Shown piece by piece: positions 4,864-21,860 of a DNA stretch of 22,081 nt (positions within the stretch are counted from its first letter, which is position 1; each line of letters starts with the position of its first letter). Origin of the DNA: a virus; IMG/VR virus record IMGVR_UViG_3300035698_008409, positions 1-22,081 of that record; one strand, given 5' to 3'. The notes beneath the pieces are model-generated. The model was given only the letters and a program-made list of their open reading frames with translations. It did not search any database and had not been told where the DNA came from. A program made the translations under genes and the position numbers.

Positions 4864-5372
4864 AATGGTCTATCCACATTCTTAATAACCGAGCTACCAA
4901 TTATAATCTCGCCGTCTCTTAATAACACCGGATAAATATATTCGGTGAAATTTAAGTTGTCAGAGTAAGAGCGGTTATAAGTAGTTTCAGTACTAATTAC
5001 TTCTACCATAGTAAGCGAGTCAACTACTAAATTAGCTGAAATATTAATTACCGTAATTGTTTCAGTAAAATTAAGATTTTCTTTGTGTACTGAAAATAGG
5101 TAAATAGTAATTACTTCGGTAAGTGATAGGTTATCGGATAGTGATTTAATGTAAGGCTGTAATAATTGTTCTGTTAATACCAAATCCTCTGAGTTAATAC
5201 CATTATAACCACCGAGGACTTCGGTAATTTCCAATGTCTCAAACTGAGTTGAAGAAAAAGGGCCGATGATTTCAGAGATTACTAAATCTTCTGCGACCGT
5301 CAGCCCTCTTCCCTTATTGCTTGAGTCAGTAATGGTAAGATTCTCAGTGAGATTCTTAGTATATACTGTCAT
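4860..5372 (-). CDS. Tandem-repeat virion protein (DNLxLTE repeats), 170 aa
   Basis: ATG at 5372 shares one base with the upstream stop (TAATG) and no strong Shine-Dalgarno is visible, so translation is probably coupled. Nearly the whole protein (residues ~10-145) is eight degenerate repeats of 17-20 residues with core [ED]-x-L-x-[ILFM]-[TSV]-[ED]: ENLTITD, EDLVISE, ETLEITE, EDLVLTE, DNLSLTE, ENLNFTE, DSLTMVE and DNLNFTE, whose Leu residues fall at 12, 30, 47, 64, 82, 100, 120 and 140. The last 25 residues (LLRDGEIIIGSSVI) are outside the repeats. Acidic and Thr/Ser-rich with regular strands, it could form a repetitive beta structure such as a tail-tip decoration or fibre shaft. Short Ser/Asp/Leu/Thr repeats of this sort occur in other phage virion proteins, but I do not recognise a named family. 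Confidence 0.7.
   Translation of the reverse strand: MTVYTKNLTENLTITDSSNKGRGLTVAEDLVISEIIGPFSSTQFETLEITEVLGGYNGINSEDLVLTEQLLQPYIKSLSDNLSLTEVITIYLFSVHKENLNFTETITVINISANLVVDSLTMVEVISTETTYNRSYSDNLNFTEYIYPVLLRDGEIIIGSSVIKNVDRPL
4941..5345 (-). repeat. Eight 17-20 residue repeats encoded in the repeat protein
   Basis: Eight copies of a degenerate unit with the core [ED]xLx[hydrophobic][TS][ED], spaced 18, 17, 17, 18, 18, 20 and 20 residues between the conserved Leu positions. The DNA copies have diverged (no long exact repeat was seen), so this looks like an old expansion kept by selection on the protein. Confidence 0.75.
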
Positions 5373-5863
5373 TATACCGGTATTGTCAATTCATAGGAAA
5401 CCTTGATATCGTCGCCACTAACTACGGGCAACACAGAATCGAACGCAATCGAAGACCAAAGAACACCAGTTGTAGTAGTTGCTACTGAGCATAAAAATGC
5501 CCCATAGATTGTTGCTGTCGCTGTGCTTGGGAATGTAGCGGCACTAGTAGTACCCTTTACACCACCAGTAGAATCAGCGTCAACCCATGCTTGTCTGTTC
5601 CCTGTATAGGAACTGAACTCAGCCCAACCTGCATGTGATGCTAACGTGTCCGCTACAGCCAATGTCGGCGTTGGACTATTATTAATAAGACCAAAATACC
5701 AAGGAGTAACTTGGGTTACTGGAGTCGCTGCCCCAAAGACTGTATCAAGACAATGGTCCTTGCCTTCCTCTGTAATCGTATTCTTTTGAGTCCATGATGC
5801 AATAACTTTGCCATCCCTAATATGCTCAATTGTGTATCGACCTTCTAATGGTAACTTTTCCAT
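5372..5863 (-). CDS. Conserved phage virion protein of unknown role, 163 aa
   Basis: I place the start at ATG 5863 rather than the in-frame TTG three bases earlier, because GAGGAG lies 7 bases before the ATG and the ATG overlaps the tape-measure stop (TGATG). The protein has a pattern I associate with small phage virion proteins: an N-terminal strand (GRYTIEHIRDGKV), WYFGLI near residue 57, then ADTLASHAGWAEF, a SYTGNRQAW segment, and alternating Thr/Ser-rich strands ending GDDIKVSYELTI. This points to a beta-sandwich. Such proteins usually sit among structural genes and are annotated without function. Here it follows the tape measure, so I infer a tail-tip or surface decoration role. Confidence 0.75.
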   Translation of the reverse strand: MEKLPLEGRYTIEHIRDGKVIASWTQKNTITEEGKDHCLDTVFGAATPVTQVTPWYFGLINNSPTPTLAVADTLASHAGWAEFSSYTGNRQAWVDADSTGGVKGTTSAATFPSTATATIYGAFLCSVATTTTGVLWSSIAFDSVLPVVSGDDIKVSYELTIPV

Positions 5864-15869: not shown

Positions 15870-17522
15870 CTACTTACCCTCCCCACGTTGTTCTTTGCCT
15901 TCTTTTTCTTCCGAAGAAGTAGGCTGTCCTGATTGAGTCTCTGGTAAACCTCTAGCTTCGCCACCTGCAGCGGCCATACCGCCACCCTTGGCTTGCGAAA
16001 TCGCAATAGCCTCTAACTTGTCTAAGTGGTCTTCCTTAGCTTTCTCAGATTCCCCGGTCTTGTAACCTCTAGCTGCCGAAGCCGTCGCAGCTGAAACCAA
16101 ACCATTTTCAATGTCAGTATCAATGGTCTTAGGATCAGCATTCACAGTCTCAGCTTTGTCAATCTCTGATGCTATCTTAGTTAAAATATCTTCCGATACC
16201 TTACCATTAAGAACAGAAACTGACACTTGCTTAGAAATTTCACGCCGGTAAGTATTGCTATTGACTTGGTGTTGCATGTCAATAAAATACTTTGAGTCTT
16301 CTCGTCGGTCTTCATCACTCTTAAGGCTGTAATTTAATGGGTAATTTACTTGGGAGGTCTGAGAGTTCTCATACTCTGCCCAAATTTCAGCGATTTGATT
16401 CTCGCCGTTCTCTAATACAAGGCCAATGAAGCTAAGACCGGCTTCTAACGATCGGTTGTCAAAGGACTTAGATTCCGCAGACGACATTGCCGTTGAGAAA
16501 TCTGAAACTCCTAGATTAACTAACCTTTTAATATCCTGCTTTAATTGCTCTGCCTTCTGCATACTGACCACTAATGGTTCAGACGAAGGATGAATAAAGC
16601 CAGGACGTTCCACATTCACGCCATAGGATCTGCCTGTTGCAGCACCAGTAGCAATAGTAGTGTCCTCTTCGCCCTCAGTGGGCTTCAAATGCTTCCCTTT
16701 TACCCTGCCATCAACCTGTTCTGTGTAGAACGGATAGTTTGATTTCAGGATGTAAGAGATATCAGAAGATTCTATATTTAATAGAGCCACCTGATAATCC
16801 GCAACATCCTCCATCAAAGCAGAAGGTAACTGGAAAACAACAAAAGGAATTCGCTTCAAATTGAGAATAGTTTTTTCTGCATGGGTCGGTGTGAAATCAT
16901 AAGTCTCACTAAATTGAACCGTAACATAACCATCTTCCAAAGTATAAAAGCGAAATCTTTCAGTTGAATCATAGACCAGTCCTGTGACTGAGTCGTTCTT
17001 ATAAATTGTATCTCTTAAGAGCAACGTCCTTAAATTATTGGCCGAATCATAAGACCAAGATAAAATATCTTCAGTGCGATATAGATATAAGTAGGGTACT
17101 TTACCCAAAGAATCTGCTAGTGTATTACCTTCAAACGTAGGCATGTCAACGTAAACGCCAACTCTGCCCATAGGCAATAGTTCAGTTAATAGCTCTGAGC
17201 CAATGAAACTATTCATGTTTTGGCCGGTAAGGTCAACACCGTTGGCCAGCCCAGCCATTGCGTCTTGGTAATTATTAGAACCACCAATGCGTTTTACATC
17301 AACGATGCGTTGAAAAATAGCATTCTTGATGTCATTAATAGCTGCTTTAGCAAATGAAGGGCTGAAACTAAGTTCTTTCCTATCATTAAATTCGTCAGTA
17401 GTCTCTCTAGTAGACATTTTCTTCAAATATCTATTTAAAAAGTCCTGTCCGCCTTTATACGCCAACCTGAATTTATCCCAATTAAGTTGGTTGGAAAGAT
17501 AAAATGGGTGTTCTCCTACCAT
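15870..17522 (-). CDS. Portal protein, DUF4055-like, 550 aa
   Basis: ATG at 17522 lies within the end of the terminase gene (8-base overlap). Residues ~50-140 carry FSPSFAKAAINDIKNAIFQR, VKRIGG, NGVDLTGQNMNSFIGSEL and LLPMGRVGVYVDMP, a portal pattern of the DUF4055 type (..vDl.G.....f......L..Gr.gv.VD.P). The middle has NLKRIPFVVFQLPS and LLNIESSDISYILKSNYPF, then a helical stem/clip region (SSAESKSFDNRSLEAGLSFIGLVLE). The C-terminal ~80 residues are Lys/Glu/Gly-rich and probably disordered. Twelve copies would form the vertex ring through which terminase pumps DNA. Adjacency to terminase, connector, scaffold and coat is the expected order. Confidence 0.92.
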   Translation of the reverse strand: MVGEHPFYLSNQLNWDKFRLAYKGGQDFLNRYLKKMSTRETTDEFNDRKELSFSPSFAKAAINDIKNAIFQRIVDVKRIGGSNNYQDAMAGLANGVDLTGQNMNSFIGSELLTELLPMGRVGVYVDMPTFEGNTLADSLGKVPYLYLYRTEDILSWSYDSANNLRTLLLRDTIYKNDSVTGLVYDSTERFRFYTLEDGYVTVQFSETYDFTPTHAEKTILNLKRIPFVVFQLPSALMEDVADYQVALLNIESSDISYILKSNYPFYTEQVDGRVKGKHLKPTEGEEDTTIATGAATGRSYGVNVERPGFIHPSSEPLVVSMQKAEQLKQDIKRLVNLGVSDFSTAMSSAESKSFDNRSLEAGLSFIGLVLENGENQIAEIWAEYENSQTSQVNYPLNYSLKSDEDRREDSKYFIDMQHQVNSNTYRREISKQVSVSVLNGKVSEDILTKIASEIDKAETVNADPKTIDTDIENGLVSAATASAARGYKTGESEKAKEDHLDKLEAIAISQAKGGGMAAAGGEARGLPETQSGQPTSSEEKEGKEQRGEGK

Positions 17523-19147
17523 GATTCAATATCCTCGTTTGGGGTATATCCAGCGGCCAGGGGTAATGCAATCTCTGCGTAGTTCCTGGCATGGGCAAAG
17601 TGGTCAGCACCTTCATTTTGATACCGACCGACTGAGTTTCCGTCAGGGTCTTCTTTATATACTTTCACAGGCTCTTGTAAATGGATTAAATAATCCTCTG
17701 GAGTATTAGTAGGTAATAGAATTCTTCCTGAACGGAATCGGCTTAAGGCCAAATCAAGCCAGGATGTTCTATCTACCGATACTCTATGTTCTTCTTCTGG
17801 GCCGGTTTTGAATTGCTTTGCTGCCGCACCGCGTACATAATAACAAACTCTTACAAAGCCATAAAAGCGTTCAGCGAAAGCAAGTGCTGCTCTGACTTCT
17901 GGCTGTGCGTCAATGACACAATAATCAACATTGTAATCATACATTAATTTGTCTAAGTCACTAAAATTATCCACTGTCAGGATATTAATGACTCGACATT
18001 TGGCATTTAGATTAGGTAGTATATTAGCTGTTCTATCGAACTTCCAACTGTCAATCTCTACATGAATGACTTTACCTACGTCAACGCCCATTGTAGTTAT
18101 TTCACCGTCCTTGTGGGTTCCCATTTGATGCGAACCTATGTTATCAGTTACTTCTTTTCTAGATAATCTCGCATCCTCAGCTTCAAAGACCAAACCCATT
18201 TTAGAGTTATAAAGCTCTTGTGCTTCGGCTGAATTGTAGCGGGCTCGGATCGTGTGAGCGGCTATTAATTGCGGAGGTACTGTTGTTGAGTATAACTGAC
18301 TACAAGTAAAACCCTTAGAGTCTCTATCTGTGTAAGCGGGGACATACTGACCCGTTGCTAACCATTCTGATTTAGTTTCATGGGGCAGTATTGCCTTACA
18401 CTTGGTGCAAATTAAATGTGATCCTTTTAATTTCTGGTCGTCCAAATTATCCGAAGTTACTATCAATGAGTCTGGGTATGATAAATTAATTATTCTGCCA
18501 CAGCTGGGACACGTAAAGAAAAACTCTTCTTGCGTCGATCTCTTATAGTAAGCATTGATACCTTTGTTCTCCGTTGTAGGAGTAGAAATCATTAGACATT
18601 GTTTGATCTCTTGACCAGACATTCGCTCCAATGCCAACGGGATGTTGTCTTTGGGCATTTCGTCTAATTCATCCAGTGCGACAAAACCACAAGGAATCGA
18701 TTTTAATTGTGACTTTGATCTACTACCTCTAACATACAGGTTGTTTTGACCGGCCCTCTTGTGTCCTACATTCTTCACGTCTGTAAAAATGTTTTTAAGA
18801 TGAGGACTGGCTTCGAGGGCCGTATCAAAACGTCCAGCTGAAAATTCACTGGCGTCCCTTTGCGTAGGTAGTACATACAAACAATCAACCGATTCCATAT
18901 CAATCTTATAAAAGGTCATGTTCAACGCCCACTCGGTGAAACCCATTTGAGCGGCTTTTTGACCTATAATTAATTCGGAATCACACTCATGTGGCTCTCT
19001 TAACCACGGAAATCTGTCAAAACGCCAATTATGTGAGGCTGGTTTTGACATTACCCGGTAAGTTTCAGCCCATTTAGCACAAGATACGATAGAGTTTCGT
19101 TTCAACCCTTCGGCAATCCGTTCCTTCATCGCTTGTGCTAAGCTCAT
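17516..19147 (-). CDS. Terminase large subunit, GpA family, 543 aa
   Basis: ATG at 19147 overlaps the previous stop by ATGA. The N-terminus has the GpA-type CAKWAETYRVMSKPASHNWRF. A Walker A-like site GQKAAQMGFTEW spans residues 62-73, and Walker B LDELDEM residues 158-164 with D159/E160. A coupling motif ISTPT lies at 187-191. A zinc-binding pair C213/C216 with C247/C250 follows, as in this family. The nuclease domain starts near residue 350 (MGVDVGKVIHVEI) with a further acidic site CVIDAQPE around 405, and ends with DHFAHARNYAEIAL. It packages and cuts concatemeric DNA at the portal. No small terminase subunit is recognisable upstream, where a protease and small membrane protein lie instead. 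Confidence 0.95.
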   Translation of the reverse strand: MSLAQAMKERIAEGLKRNSIVSCAKWAETYRVMSKPASHNWRFDRFPWLREPHECDSELIIGQKAAQMGFTEWALNMTFYKIDMESVDCLYVLPTQRDASEFSAGRFDTALEASPHLKNIFTDVKNVGHKRAGQNNLYVRGSRSKSQLKSIPCGFVALDELDEMPKDNIPLALERMSGQEIKQCLMISTPTTENKGINAYYKRSTQEEFFFTCPSCGRIINLSYPDSLIVTSDNLDDQKLKGSHLICTKCKAILPHETKSEWLATGQYVPAYTDRDSKGFTCSQLYSTTVPPQLIAAHTIRARYNSAEAQELYNSKMGLVFEAEDARLSRKEVTDNIGSHQMGTHKDGEITTMGVDVGKVIHVEIDSWKFDRTANILPNLNAKCRVINILTVDNFSDLDKLMYDYNVDYCVIDAQPEVRAALAFAERFYGFVRVCYYVRGAAAKQFKTGPEEEHRVSVDRTSWLDLALSRFRSGRILLPTNTPEDYLIHLQEPVKVYKEDPDGNSVGRYQNEGADHFAHARNYAEIALPLAAGYTPNEDIESW

Positions 19148-19494: not shown

Positions 19495-20328
19495 TTAATT
19501 ACTTTTTACTTGCTTGATTCCAAAAACAATCGCCAGTGTAATGATGAAAATCAATACCATAGCAGACGGGAATAATAGGGCGGTCCAATTAAAATTACCC
19601 TCTTCTTCAATTTCTTTATTCTCTTCAGGCTTGGGTGTGTTGTTCGGCTTAGGCATATGCCTATCCCAAGGCCCTTCATTAACCCCGTTAAATTGTGGCT
19701 TTGGCGTTGTCGGAGGACAACTACGGCGATTAGGCCGGCATCGTTGAAATAGCCTTAGATTAGTTGTGTCAGTAACAGAACCGAAATAACATGCACCATT
19801 AGTTCCAATTGATCCTTTGCTGATAATTCCTACTAAGCCTTCAGCAGAAAAAATTCCACCACCAGATTGGCCTTTGAACAATCGGCCTTGGGTATGCAAT
19901 ATAGTTCCATCTGACACCATAGTATGCCGCGTATACATCTTAGCTCGATCAGTAACCCCAGGATAACCGCAAGCAAATAACTCAGTGCCGGGGTTTGGTG
20001 ACTGAGCAAAAGTAGCCTTAGCAATTTGATGACTTACAGGGGCAGTCGTAATAACAGCAATATCCTTTGTGCTATCTACAGTGTCTAGCTTACCGGCTAC
20101 TGAGGTCTTACCATACTGCATTGTATAAACGATATCTGAGGATACACAATGTGCGGCTGTCAAATGAAAGCCTTTCCCCTCGTAATCGCCAATATACACA
20201 CAAGAACCAACAATTGAATCGTCGGTATAAAAGCGTCCTACTGATGTAAAATGGTCAGTGGGTGGTGCAGTAGCAGCGGCTAATGGCGTAGTTAGCAATG
20301 CTAACATTATAATCCAAATTTTATACAT
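19495..20328 (-). CDS. Membrane-anchored trypsin-like (S1-fold) serine protease, 277 aa
   Basis: ATG at 20328 with AGGAG 7 bases upstream. Residues 1-21 form a signal peptide (K3, hydrophobic core WIIMLALL, AAATA then AP, a plausible cleavage site). The catalytic domain covers ~28-195: TAAHC with H60, a C43/C61 pair like the chymotrypsin C42-C58 bond, D89 in STKDIAVI, and S155 in GQSGGGIF followed by VGIIS. Family knowledge makes H60-D89-S155 the triad. Asp189 of trypsin has no clear equivalent (R149 falls there by counting), so specificity is unknown, and Gln154 replaces the usual zymogen Asp194. Residues ~199-245 are a Pro/Asn/Glu-rich linker; ~248-270 is a transmembrane helix, then a short IKQVKSN tail. 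The catalytic domain should lie outside the cytoplasm. Such a gene is unusual in a phage late operon; role unknown. Confidence 0.9.
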   Translation of the reverse strand: MYKIWIIMLALLTTPLAAATAPPTDHFTSVGRFYTDDSIVGSCVYIGDYEGKGFHLTAAHCVSSDIVYTMQYGKTSVAGKLDTVDSTKDIAVITTAPVSHQIAKATFAQSPNPGTELFACGYPGVTDRAKMYTRHTMVSDGTILHTQGRLFKGQSGGGIFSAEGLVGIISKGSIGTNGACYFGSVTDTTNLRLFQRCRPNRRSCPPTTPKPQFNGVNEGPWDRHMPKPNNTPKPEENKEIEEEGNFNWTALLFPSAMVLIFIITLAIVFGIKQVKSN

Positions 20329-20331
20329 CTC

Positions 20332-20475
20332 TTATCTCCTAATCATACATCCTGCAATAATAAAAAATGCCTTTCCCATTTTCAATGGGTGCCTAAATAT
20401 AGCCGAAATAAACATAGCTTTCAAGGCTTTAACAATTAAAGGCGTGAACAACGATAAAACAGATAAAATAATCAT
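20332..20475 (-). CDS. Cationic hydrophobic peptide, 47 aa, possible lysis/membrane protein
   Basis: ATG at 20475 overlaps the preceding stop (ATGA). The frame ends just before the protease ATG, and the protease Shine-Dalgarno lies within its last codons, so the three genes are coupled. The peptide has no Asp or Glu, seven Lys/Arg and one His, and two hydrophobic stretches (MIILSVLSLFTPLIV at 1-15 and AMFISAIF at 20-27, then AFFIIAGCMI at 36-45). It is likely membrane-active or membrane-embedded: a small holin-like protein, a protease partner or an inhibitor are options. It resembles no family I can name. Translation is supported by coupling but not by a separate strong ribosome site. Confidence 0.55.
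   Translation of the reverse strand: MIILSVLSLFTPLIVKALKAMFISAIFRHPLKMGKAFFIIAGCMIRR
20375..20389 (-). terminator. Possible weak hairpin/attenuator before the protease gene
   Basis: A perfect 6-bp stem with a 3-base loop (CCCATT-GAA-AATGGG on the minus strand) is followed nine bases later by a run of six T. It lies inside the 47-residue gene. The gap before the T run is longer than for a good intrinsic terminator, so at most it could reduce read-through or slow transcription before the protease. Confidence 0.25.
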
Positions 20476-20756
20476 GCTTCATAGAATAGTTCGACGGTTG
20501 CGGTTGCTGTAGTAGCAGTATATACTTGCAAGTGTTCCGTCGGATTCCACGCCGGAATAATCTTGGTTATGCCTGAAGCTACTGTTAGTGTAGCTGATGT
20601 GTAAATATCCTTGATAGTAATATCCGCCGAAGGCGTAATATTAACTTGAACTACCTTTTGGCTTTCAAGGTCAAGTAATGTAGCCAATAACGTCGGCGTA
20701 GTAGTAATATTAATGTTCTCAATTCGATACTTGTGTGCAATGGGTAGTTGGTTCAT
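20472..20756 (-). CDS. Small beta-rich protein of unknown function, 94 aa
   Basis: ATG at 20756 with AGGAG 7 bases upstream. The sequence is Thr/Ile/Val-rich with alternating hydrophobic residues (VVQVNITPSADITI, SATLTVASGITKIIP, TATATVELFYEA) and no cysteine, consistent with a small beta-sandwich. Its place after a fibre-like gene and two mini-genes suggests a virion appendage component. I do not recognise the family. Its stop overlaps the start of the cationic peptide gene. Confidence 0.75.
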   Translation of the reverse strand: MNQLPIAHKYRIENINITTTPTLLATLLDLESQKVVQVNITPSADITIKDIYTSATLTVASGITKIIPAWNPTEHLQVYTATTATATVELFYEA

Positions 20757-21074: not shown

Positions 21075-21860
21075 CTAACTATACTCTCCCCTAGTGGTCG
21101 TGCCGCCAGAATCGGATACAGTAGATGCGGCCACTGACCCAGAACCAGCATCGTCATAAACGGTCTGTGTGTCTGAGGTCTGAGTTATTTTATTCCTAGC
21201 TAGCAGTGTCAACCATCCTATTTTATCTTTCAAACTGGCTGTGGCAGCTGGAACACCTACTGGTTCTGAGTAAGTATCAGTGATTAATGATGCTACAATT
21301 TTCAAGGCTATAGCCTCTTGACTATGTGTATTGTCATTATAATCAGCAATTGTACCATCGACGGCCAGCATCTGAGCTAACACTGAATCGTTTGCTATAA
21401 TTGATGTTAATGTTGCTGCATTGGCGAATAAGTATTGAGCAATTTCGGCCAGATCGGTTACTCTATCTGTACTACTACCAATCGCATAGAGGTCGACGGT
21501 TTCAAGCCAGATCGGAGTGGCAATCACATCAACATCCGAATCGTTTGCATTGTCCGACGTTACCGTAACCACGACAGTATCATTCGCAAAGGCAGTGAAT
21601 CCGAACGTGTAAAGGCGGACCCTAAGTACGCCAGCTGCCTTGGTGACTGTCTGCTCTGACCCGCCGAAGGTCTCACCCTCGACGGTAACAGAAATGGTCA
21701 ACGTTCCGGCGTCAGTATGCAGGTTCTTCGTACCGTCACCAATCCGAAGGGCAACTTGCATATATCTAGCAACTGTTGCACTTGGCGTGGCGTTGTAGCA
21801 TATCTCGCCTGTAGCTAGGTCACGGTCGTCATTTACTTCTGCTCCAATTGAGATTGCCAT
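21075..21860 (-). CDS. Fibre/appendage-like virion protein, 261 aa
   Basis: ATG at 21860, one base after the previous stop, with AGG about 11 bases upstream. Residues ~1-120 are a beta-rich domain (YMQVALRIGDGTKNL, TLTISVTVEGETF, RVRLYTFGFTAFANDTVVVTV). The middle (~125-205) is helical, and the C-terminal ~60 residues read LKDKIGWLTLLARNKITQTSDTQ followed by VYDDAGSGSVAASTVSDSGG and TTTRGEYS. That ending, a short helix then a DDxGxx...StvsDxgtTxTrGEy tail, recurs at the C-termini of phage tail appendage proteins as I remember them, and may serve assembly or attachment. I infer a virion surface protein. The N-terminal half is visibly richer in G+C than the small genes downstream. Confidence 0.7.
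   Translation of the reverse strand: MAISIGAEVNDDRDLATGEICYNATPSATVARYMQVALRIGDGTKNLHTDAGTLTISVTVEGETFGGSEQTVTKAAGVLRVRLYTFGFTAFANDTVVVTVTSDNANDSDVDVIATPIWLETVDLYAIGSSTDRVTDLAEIAQYLFANAATLTSIIANDSVLAQMLAVDGTIADYNDNTHSQEAIALKIVASLITDTYSEPVGVPAATASLKDKIGWLTLLARNKITQTSDTQTVYDDAGSGSVAASTVSDSGGTTTRGEYS

Follow-up and report, generated by a model that had tools for sequence, protein, structure and literature searches.

Trypsin-type serine proteases are annotated in a number of cultured phages, namely Sulfitobacter pCB2047-A and pCB2047-C, NYA-2014a, Rhizobium 16-3 and its relatives as well as Rhizobium and Sinorhizobium phages of about 150 kb; Sinorhizobium phiM9 and Rhizobium P10VF and AF3 likewise carry one. 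The trypsin of Rhizobium phage 16-3 (p036) is noted as 'typically periplasmic'. In addition, two motif scans of IMG/VR yield at least 73 trypsin ORFs in at least 45 clusters, some of which may be host DNA at provirus edges; most of those listed encode proteins of 210 to 250 amino acids which combine an N-terminal signal with a single domain carrying the H/D/S triad. From the annotated and the IMG/VR sequences taken together it follows that the exported phage trypsin is a known and common kind of protein. The novelty implied by the original prediction for the protease studied here can hence not be upheld in this general form. What is unusual is its predicted C-terminal anchor with a stalk and its setting within cargo beside the gene of the terminase large subunit (TerL).

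The window analysed, 22,081 nucleotides in length, is an entire 22-kb IMG/VR record and represents a fragment of an uncultured virus. Like its protease, the cultured-phage trypsins consist of a single trypsin-type domain, share the same active-site region and belong to tailed phages, and those of pCB2047-C, 16-3 and NV1.1.1 also possess a signal sequence. In contrast, the proteins of this group that were read have neither a Pro-rich stalk nor a C-terminal helix, those aligned show 23–26% identity to the window protease, and their genes reside elsewhere in the genome, in the lysis or a non-structural region. The IMG/VR trypsins, too, mostly lack a C-terminal anchor. The HtrA family members DegS, DegP and DegQ resemble the window protease in fold, catalytic residues and periplasmic site (predicted for the latter), whereas it bears no PDZ domain and its anchor is C-terminal; that of DegS is N-terminal. 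MarP (Rv3671c) is likewise a membrane-held periplasmic protease of chymotrypsin fold but possesses four N-terminal helices; it cleaves RipA (PMC6628586). With regard to the role proposed below, the closest parallel is the phage-derived Listeria metzincin Mtz, an exported protease at the envelope which, along with a TIMP-like lipoprotein, confers higher sensitivity to phage lysis (PMC8235301). Mtz, however, is a metalloprotease of unrelated fold and is paired with that lipoprotein (Tim).

Predicted architecture and fold of the protease

The features of the protease and its surroundings are compiled in Table 1. The original prediction had read from the gene a signal peptide, a His60/Asp89/Ser155 triad, a chymotrypsin-like cysteine pair, a Pro-rich linker and a C-terminal membrane helix, and each of these elements is recovered, those concerned with export and anchoring as predictions from hydropathy and the -3/-1 rule. 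The N-terminus, MYKIWIIMLALLTTPLAAATA, is of the Sec type, and the -3/-1 rule allows cleavage after residue 18, 19 or 21. Since the strongly hydrophobic segment 250–271 is followed by KQVKSN, the predicted topology places the protease domain outside and the tail inside, so that the orientation of the active domain towards the periplasm or cell exterior, as suggested originally, is well predicted. A helix spanning residues 248–276 is also present in a model of low confidence (3 sequences, pLDDT 34).

Table 1. Positions of the protease gene, of its predicted elements and of neighbouring genes within the window.
Feature	Position	Strand	Basis or remark
Trypsin-type serine protease, 277 aa, ATG start; predicted to be exported and C-terminally anchored	19495..20328	-	Pfam, PHROG, alignment, model, hydropathy
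Predicted Sec-type signal peptide, codons 1-21, predicted cleavage after 18-21	20266..20328	-	hydropathy and -3/-1 rule only
Chymotrypsin-fold protease domain, codons 31-185	19774..20238	-	Pfam, model and PDB fold matches
His60, predicted catalytic residue, followed by Cys61	20149..20151	-	alignment, sequence
Asp89, predicted catalytic residue	20062..20064	-	invariant in 41 sequences
Ser155, predicted nucleophile, within GQSGG	19864..19866	-	invariant in 41 sequences
Cys/Pro-rich linker, codons 197-247 (CRPNRRSCPPTTPKP...)	19588..19740	-	sequence
Predicted C-terminal transmembrane helix, codons 250-271	19516..19581	-	mean Kyte-Doolittle 2.76
AGGAG ribosome-binding site, 7 nt 5' of the protease ATG	20336..20340	-	sequence
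Possible 47-aa hydrophobic ORF (holin-like?)	20332..20475	-	weak; no family match
112-aa protein with N-terminal membrane helix	19144..19482	-	its homologues in L003 and L074 adjoin exported proteins
GpA-type terminase large subunit (TerL)	17516..19147	-	Pfam/PHROG-type matches; 4-nt start overlap with the end of the 112-aa gene
94-aa protein, upstream cargo gene	20472..20756	-	no convincing family match
261-aa protein, upstream cargo gene	21075..21860	-	no family match

The protease scores above the cut-offs of both Pfam Trypsin_2 (E=4.1e-10, 41 bits, cut-off 27.6) and Pfam Trypsin (E=2.7e-4, 21.3 bits, cut-off 20.6); among the PHROG families it hits phrog_9683, labelled 'protease' (E=1.5e-9). 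An alignment of 41 sequences contains only five invariant columns, namely H60, located within TAAHC, D89, G153, S155 and G156, the two glycines flanking the putative nucleophile as would be expected for an oxyanion hole. Out of the six cysteines at positions 43, 61, 120, 180, 197 and 204, C43 and C61 would by position correspond to the 42–58 pair of chymotrypsin, Cys61 taking the place of C58. Zymogen trypsins need Asp194 for N-terminal activation; since the GQSGG motif of the window protease lacks this aspartate, no such activation step is expected, as in HtrA-type enzymes.

The S1-type fold which the original prediction had proposed to look for is indeed obtained by modelling. Calculated for residues 15–207 with the alignment of 41 phage homologues as input, the model reaches a pLDDT of 82 and a pTM of 0.82, and it matches 752 PDB structures at E<=0.001 (best 1.5e-8). 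The best matches, with E-values of about 1e-8 and TM-scores of about 0.7–0.78 relative to the query, include Rv0983, Rv3671c (MarP, 3lt3), DegP, DegS, DegQ and HtrA1, so that a chymotrypsin-type fold of the HtrA/DegS/MarP kind is predicted by a confident model. Consistently, the profile of the phage sequences matches chains of the HtrA family with an E-value of 2.4e-43 that reflects all 41 sequences, as a single-sequence phmmer search of the protease against the PDB returns nothing. Used alone as query, the window protease finds no match in the phages collection, the PDB or viral contigs either, and a profile search starting from it retrieves only trypsins of the type encoded in two related loci, L061 and L062. 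No match to a PDZ domain is found in the window protease, whose C-terminus is made up of the linker of about 50 residues and the helix.

Assignment to the MarP family was rejected in view of an NCBIfam score of 16.2 bits against a cut-off of 250 and of a single signal sequence as the only N-terminal hydrophobic element. A weak match to Avs1b lies below the cut-off and was discarded. A prohead or capsid maturation protease was likewise dismissed on account of the signal peptide and the anchor and because all family matches of the protein are to trypsin-type or general 'protease' families. As a phage-encoded protein with a signal sequence and one trypsin domain, it fits the informal group of exported phage trypsins. 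Altogether, we are highly confident that the gene encodes an exported, anchored and probably active trypsin-type protease.

Genomic setting

On the minus strand the gene order reads 261-aa gene, 49-aa ORF, 94-aa gene, possible 47-aa ORF, protease, 112-aa protein and TerL, followed by portal, adaptor, scaffold, P22-type coat and tail genes including that of the tape measure protein. As originally described, the protease gene lies in an operon-like arrangement with terminase and virion genes, being co-directional and tightly packed with the genes of the 112-aa membrane protein and the GpA-type TerL. Its location within the packaging and head block leads us to infer late expression. The hydrophobic 47-aa ORF, which overlaps the preceding gene by ATGA and stops 3 nt short of the protease ATG, possibly encodes a small membrane protein, conceivably a holin. 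Scans of the window for promoters and terminators do not exceed chance level. Within its 22 kb we found no recognisable holin, endolysin or spanin gene and no integrase or repressor gene, and two scans of genome contigs with TerL profiles detected no provirus.

The cargo site between TerS and TerL

The TerL profile retrieved 80 IMG/VR loci with 45–53% identity, while among the matches listed the TerL proteins of cultured phages remain below 25%. Upstream of TerL, 57 of 83 loci encode a small protein with RCQ..GQC..HGG motifs, which judging from its position is probably the terminase small subunit (TerS); its only match is to phrog_3678, the function label of which is 'unknown' (E=1e-4). TerS and TerL usually abut in this lineage: the distance is within 600 bases in 39 loci, and in 18 others 0.8–7.4 kb of cargo lies between the two. 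This cargo is rich in ORFs with an N-terminal hydrophobic signal: 37 of its 94 ORFs possess one, whereas 3' of TerL the figure is 38 of 580 (odds ratio 9.3). The corresponding Fisher p of 1.6e-15 is too small, as ORFs from related phages are not independent, the difference nonetheless being large. No TerS gene is present in the window within the 2.9 kb 5' of TerL at which the record ends, so that the protease appears to sit in the same kind of cargo.

In none of 82 related loci does a trypsin occupy the slot adjoining TerL, which instead carries other exported enzymes. Four loci (L036, L068, L073 and L075) share the order holin-like gene, exported protein, papain-like enzyme of roughly 310 amino acids, thioredoxin and/or DUF1360-like protein, TerL. 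The holin-like gene of these four encodes 61–63 amino acids and weakly matches phrog_4712 (E=0.007); a further weak match of holin-like genes in this interval of the relatives has an E-value of 0.12. Aligned with the sequences from L008 and L027, the papain-like group retains Q85, C90, H246, N265, S266 and W286 and thus the papain pattern, and it gives 31 weak PDB matches, mostly to papain-family chains (best E=0.013), while those members scanned against Pfam and PHROG return no match. Elsewhere the cargo comprises a papain-family enzyme above the cut-off (L013, E=8.6e-11), a transglutaminase-type enzyme (L045, 1.3e-11), a C39-like enzyme below the cut-off (L074, 5e-4) with a homologue in L003, and an exported thioredoxin (L003, 5e-12). 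The cargo is thus mixed in content, several loci (L021, L023 and L029) encoding proteins that lack export signals instead, which counts against the role in lysis proposed below.

Homologues of the 112-aa neighbour of the protease are found in L003 (pair E=2e-5) and, by alignment, in L074. In both loci the homologue follows an exported protein that ends in a C-terminal helix but lacks a trypsin domain. Hence, these loci agree with the window in the neighbour and in the anchored layout but not in the exported domain. A linker motif of the CxPNRRxC type is common to the window protease and the L003 protein (5160-5831) only, and a homology between the two linkers is suggested by it, though no more firmly than that: BLASTP gives nothing significant, and a Smith-Waterman score of 43 is reached by 10 of 2000 shuffles in which local composition was not kept.

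The recurrence of such proteases next to GpA terminases, which the original prediction had proposed to survey, is borne out as far as the virus lineage is concerned but not with respect to adjacency. Trypsin_2 exceeds its cut-off in 4 of 50 larger TerL-related records, namely those of L061, L062, L079 and L008, and none of the four trypsins adjoins TerL. L061 and L062 share one protein of 411 amino acids, to which the window protease aligns with E=1e-4, and L079 encodes one of 402. Like the window protease these are exported and contain a trypsin domain (GDSGG) and a Cys/Pro-rich segment. Unlike it, they comprise about 400 residues, carry the Pro-rich part N-terminal to the domain, end in a long coiled-coil-like tail instead of a helix and are encoded 5' of TerS. 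The 112-kb record of L008 encodes, at a locus designated L084, an exported trypsin of 199 amino acids. The concern that homologues might be confined to host genomes turned out to be unfounded, as they lie in phages. Among the IMG/VR trypsins, that of a 177-kb record (L115, IMGVR_UViG_3300033145_000192), of which a context of 1.6 kb was read, is exceptional in bearing a C-terminal helix besides its N-terminal signal or helix.

Possible function of the protease

We tentatively propose that the protease is a late accessory enzyme which cuts periplasmic or other envelope proteins and thereby assists lysis and release. It would be made together with the packaging and head proteins of this uncultured tailed phage, pass through Sec with removal of the signal peptide and remain attached to the inner membrane through the C-terminal helix. 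The trypsin-type domain, borne by a flexible Cys/Pro-rich stalk, would then reside in the periplasm (or outside in a one-membrane host) and, active without N-terminal processing, could cut envelope proteins of the host at a late stage of infection. Easier lysis and virion release would be the likeliest gain, brought about either by removal of envelope-stabilising proteins or, in the way MarP acts on RipA, by release or activation of a cell-wall hydrolase. Activity, timing, substrate and a contribution to lysis are in this scheme deduced from the predicted architecture and the setting of the gene.

Among the targets named originally, nothing observed here points directly to receptors or tail proteins. 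A lysis-associated role receives positional support of an indirect kind. For the lineage of the window, the case consists of the late-block position, of cargo combining holin-like genes with exported hydrolases, and of the lack of matches to common endolysin families. In 22 larger TerL-related contigs no match exceeds the cut-off for seven such families (Amidase_2, Phage_lysozyme, SLT, Peptidase_M15_3, NLPC_P60, Peptidase_M23 and Amidase_3), although some endolysins may have escaped detection or belong to families beyond the seven, and the contigs themselves are possibly incomplete. Records of L002, L003, L008, L018, L056 and L077 are among these contigs. Nor does an endolysin occur among the best 25 of 31 PHROG families for 55 selected ORFs from two contigs of about 42 kb. 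In Sulfitobacter pCB2047-C, the gene of the exported trypsin is preceded by those of an endolysin and an XhlA-like protein. Across the 45 clusters of exported phage trypsins, however, endolysin and spanin families account for only about two each among 139 neighbours, which does not support a general lysis link; the notion that such trypsins generally belong to lysis cassettes was rejected on these grounds. The commonest recognised neighbour is a DNA-repair exonuclease (phrog_704, 9 of 139). Exported proteases are common in phages; the literature searched yielded no tested function for those of the trypsin type and no paper on phage trypsins in lysis or exclusion.

The frequent placement of trypsins beside this exonuclease rather than beside lysis genes in other phages would fit a host-interaction role such as superinfection exclusion, in which the anchored protease would damage or remove envelope proteins on which the adsorption or DNA entry of later phages depends. 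The predicted envelope location would suit this role as well, but exclusion would be less useful at the late time of expression suggested by the packaging and head operon, and the fragment contains no integrase or repressor gene; we therefore consider it unlikely. A similarly low probability is assigned to envelope quality control, that is, DegS/DegP-like degradation of misfolded exported proteins or an altered envelope-stress response of the host as phage membrane proteins build up. DegS, DegP and DegQ do represent the closest solved folds and profile matches, and exported thioredoxins occur in the cargo of relatives, yet the window protease passes from its domain via a short Pro-rich linker directly into the helix with no PDZ domain in between, and its anchor is at the opposite end from that of DegS.

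That no trypsin shares the slot in the 82 related loci, a cargo hotspot, might point to a neutral or recently captured host gene without a specific phage function. The intact triad and anchor, the good ribosome-binding site, the tight packing and the repeated occurrence of similar enzymes in phages all speak against it, and we rate this as improbable. Maturation of an exported or virion protein of the phage, or service as a virion component at the time of infection, appears least probable, and markedly so: the gene does lie within the virion block, but signal peptide and anchor would take the protease out of the cytoplasm, the site of capsid and tail assembly, its fold is not of the prohead-protease type, and no maturation protease is implied by a coat and scaffold set of the P22 type.

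If proteases of this kind actually serve lysis or release, they would provide a route of attack on the envelope in addition to that of holin, endolysin and spanin; should they instead keep other phages out, they would constitute a proteolytic exclusion system. Either finding would assign a role to dozens of clusters labelled only 'protease' or 'hypothetical', and the anchored form, in a cargo slot shared with other exported enzymes, offers a concrete set for testing. Going beyond the accessory role in lysis favoured above, one may speculate, with little probability in our estimation, that the exported trypsin-, papain-, C39- or transglutaminase-type enzymes, exchanged between phages in one region at the side of TerL, are the main envelope breakers of the lineage and assist or replace a standard endolysin, lysis proceeding via envelope proteins and not via peptidoglycan alone.

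Further proteins encoded near TerS and TerL

The six papain-like enzymes are encoded 5' of TerL or TerS (L073:1950-2915, L075:1982-2941, L036:1618-2535, L068:1597-2541, L008:253-1200 and L027:2280-3218), and four of them have Tat-like or Sec-like N-termini. The Tat-like RRxFL signals are, as we presume, reminiscent of Planctomycetes. Adjoining TerS, L003 (4043-4633) and L074 (756-1370) encode proteins of about 200 amino acids which are 48% identical to each other and by eye look like cysteine enzymes of the YiiX/NlpC-P60 type; they match phrog_1128 (E=4.5e-8), the label of which looks unrelated. At L013:1820-2329, a small exported protein resembling a phospholipase-D-type nuclease adjoins the papain-family enzyme. 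Exported thioredoxin-like proteins recur 5' of TerL, at L003:6425-6784, L073:2909-3244, L036:2522-2860, L048:622-1080, L057:1-411 and L074:2917-3228.
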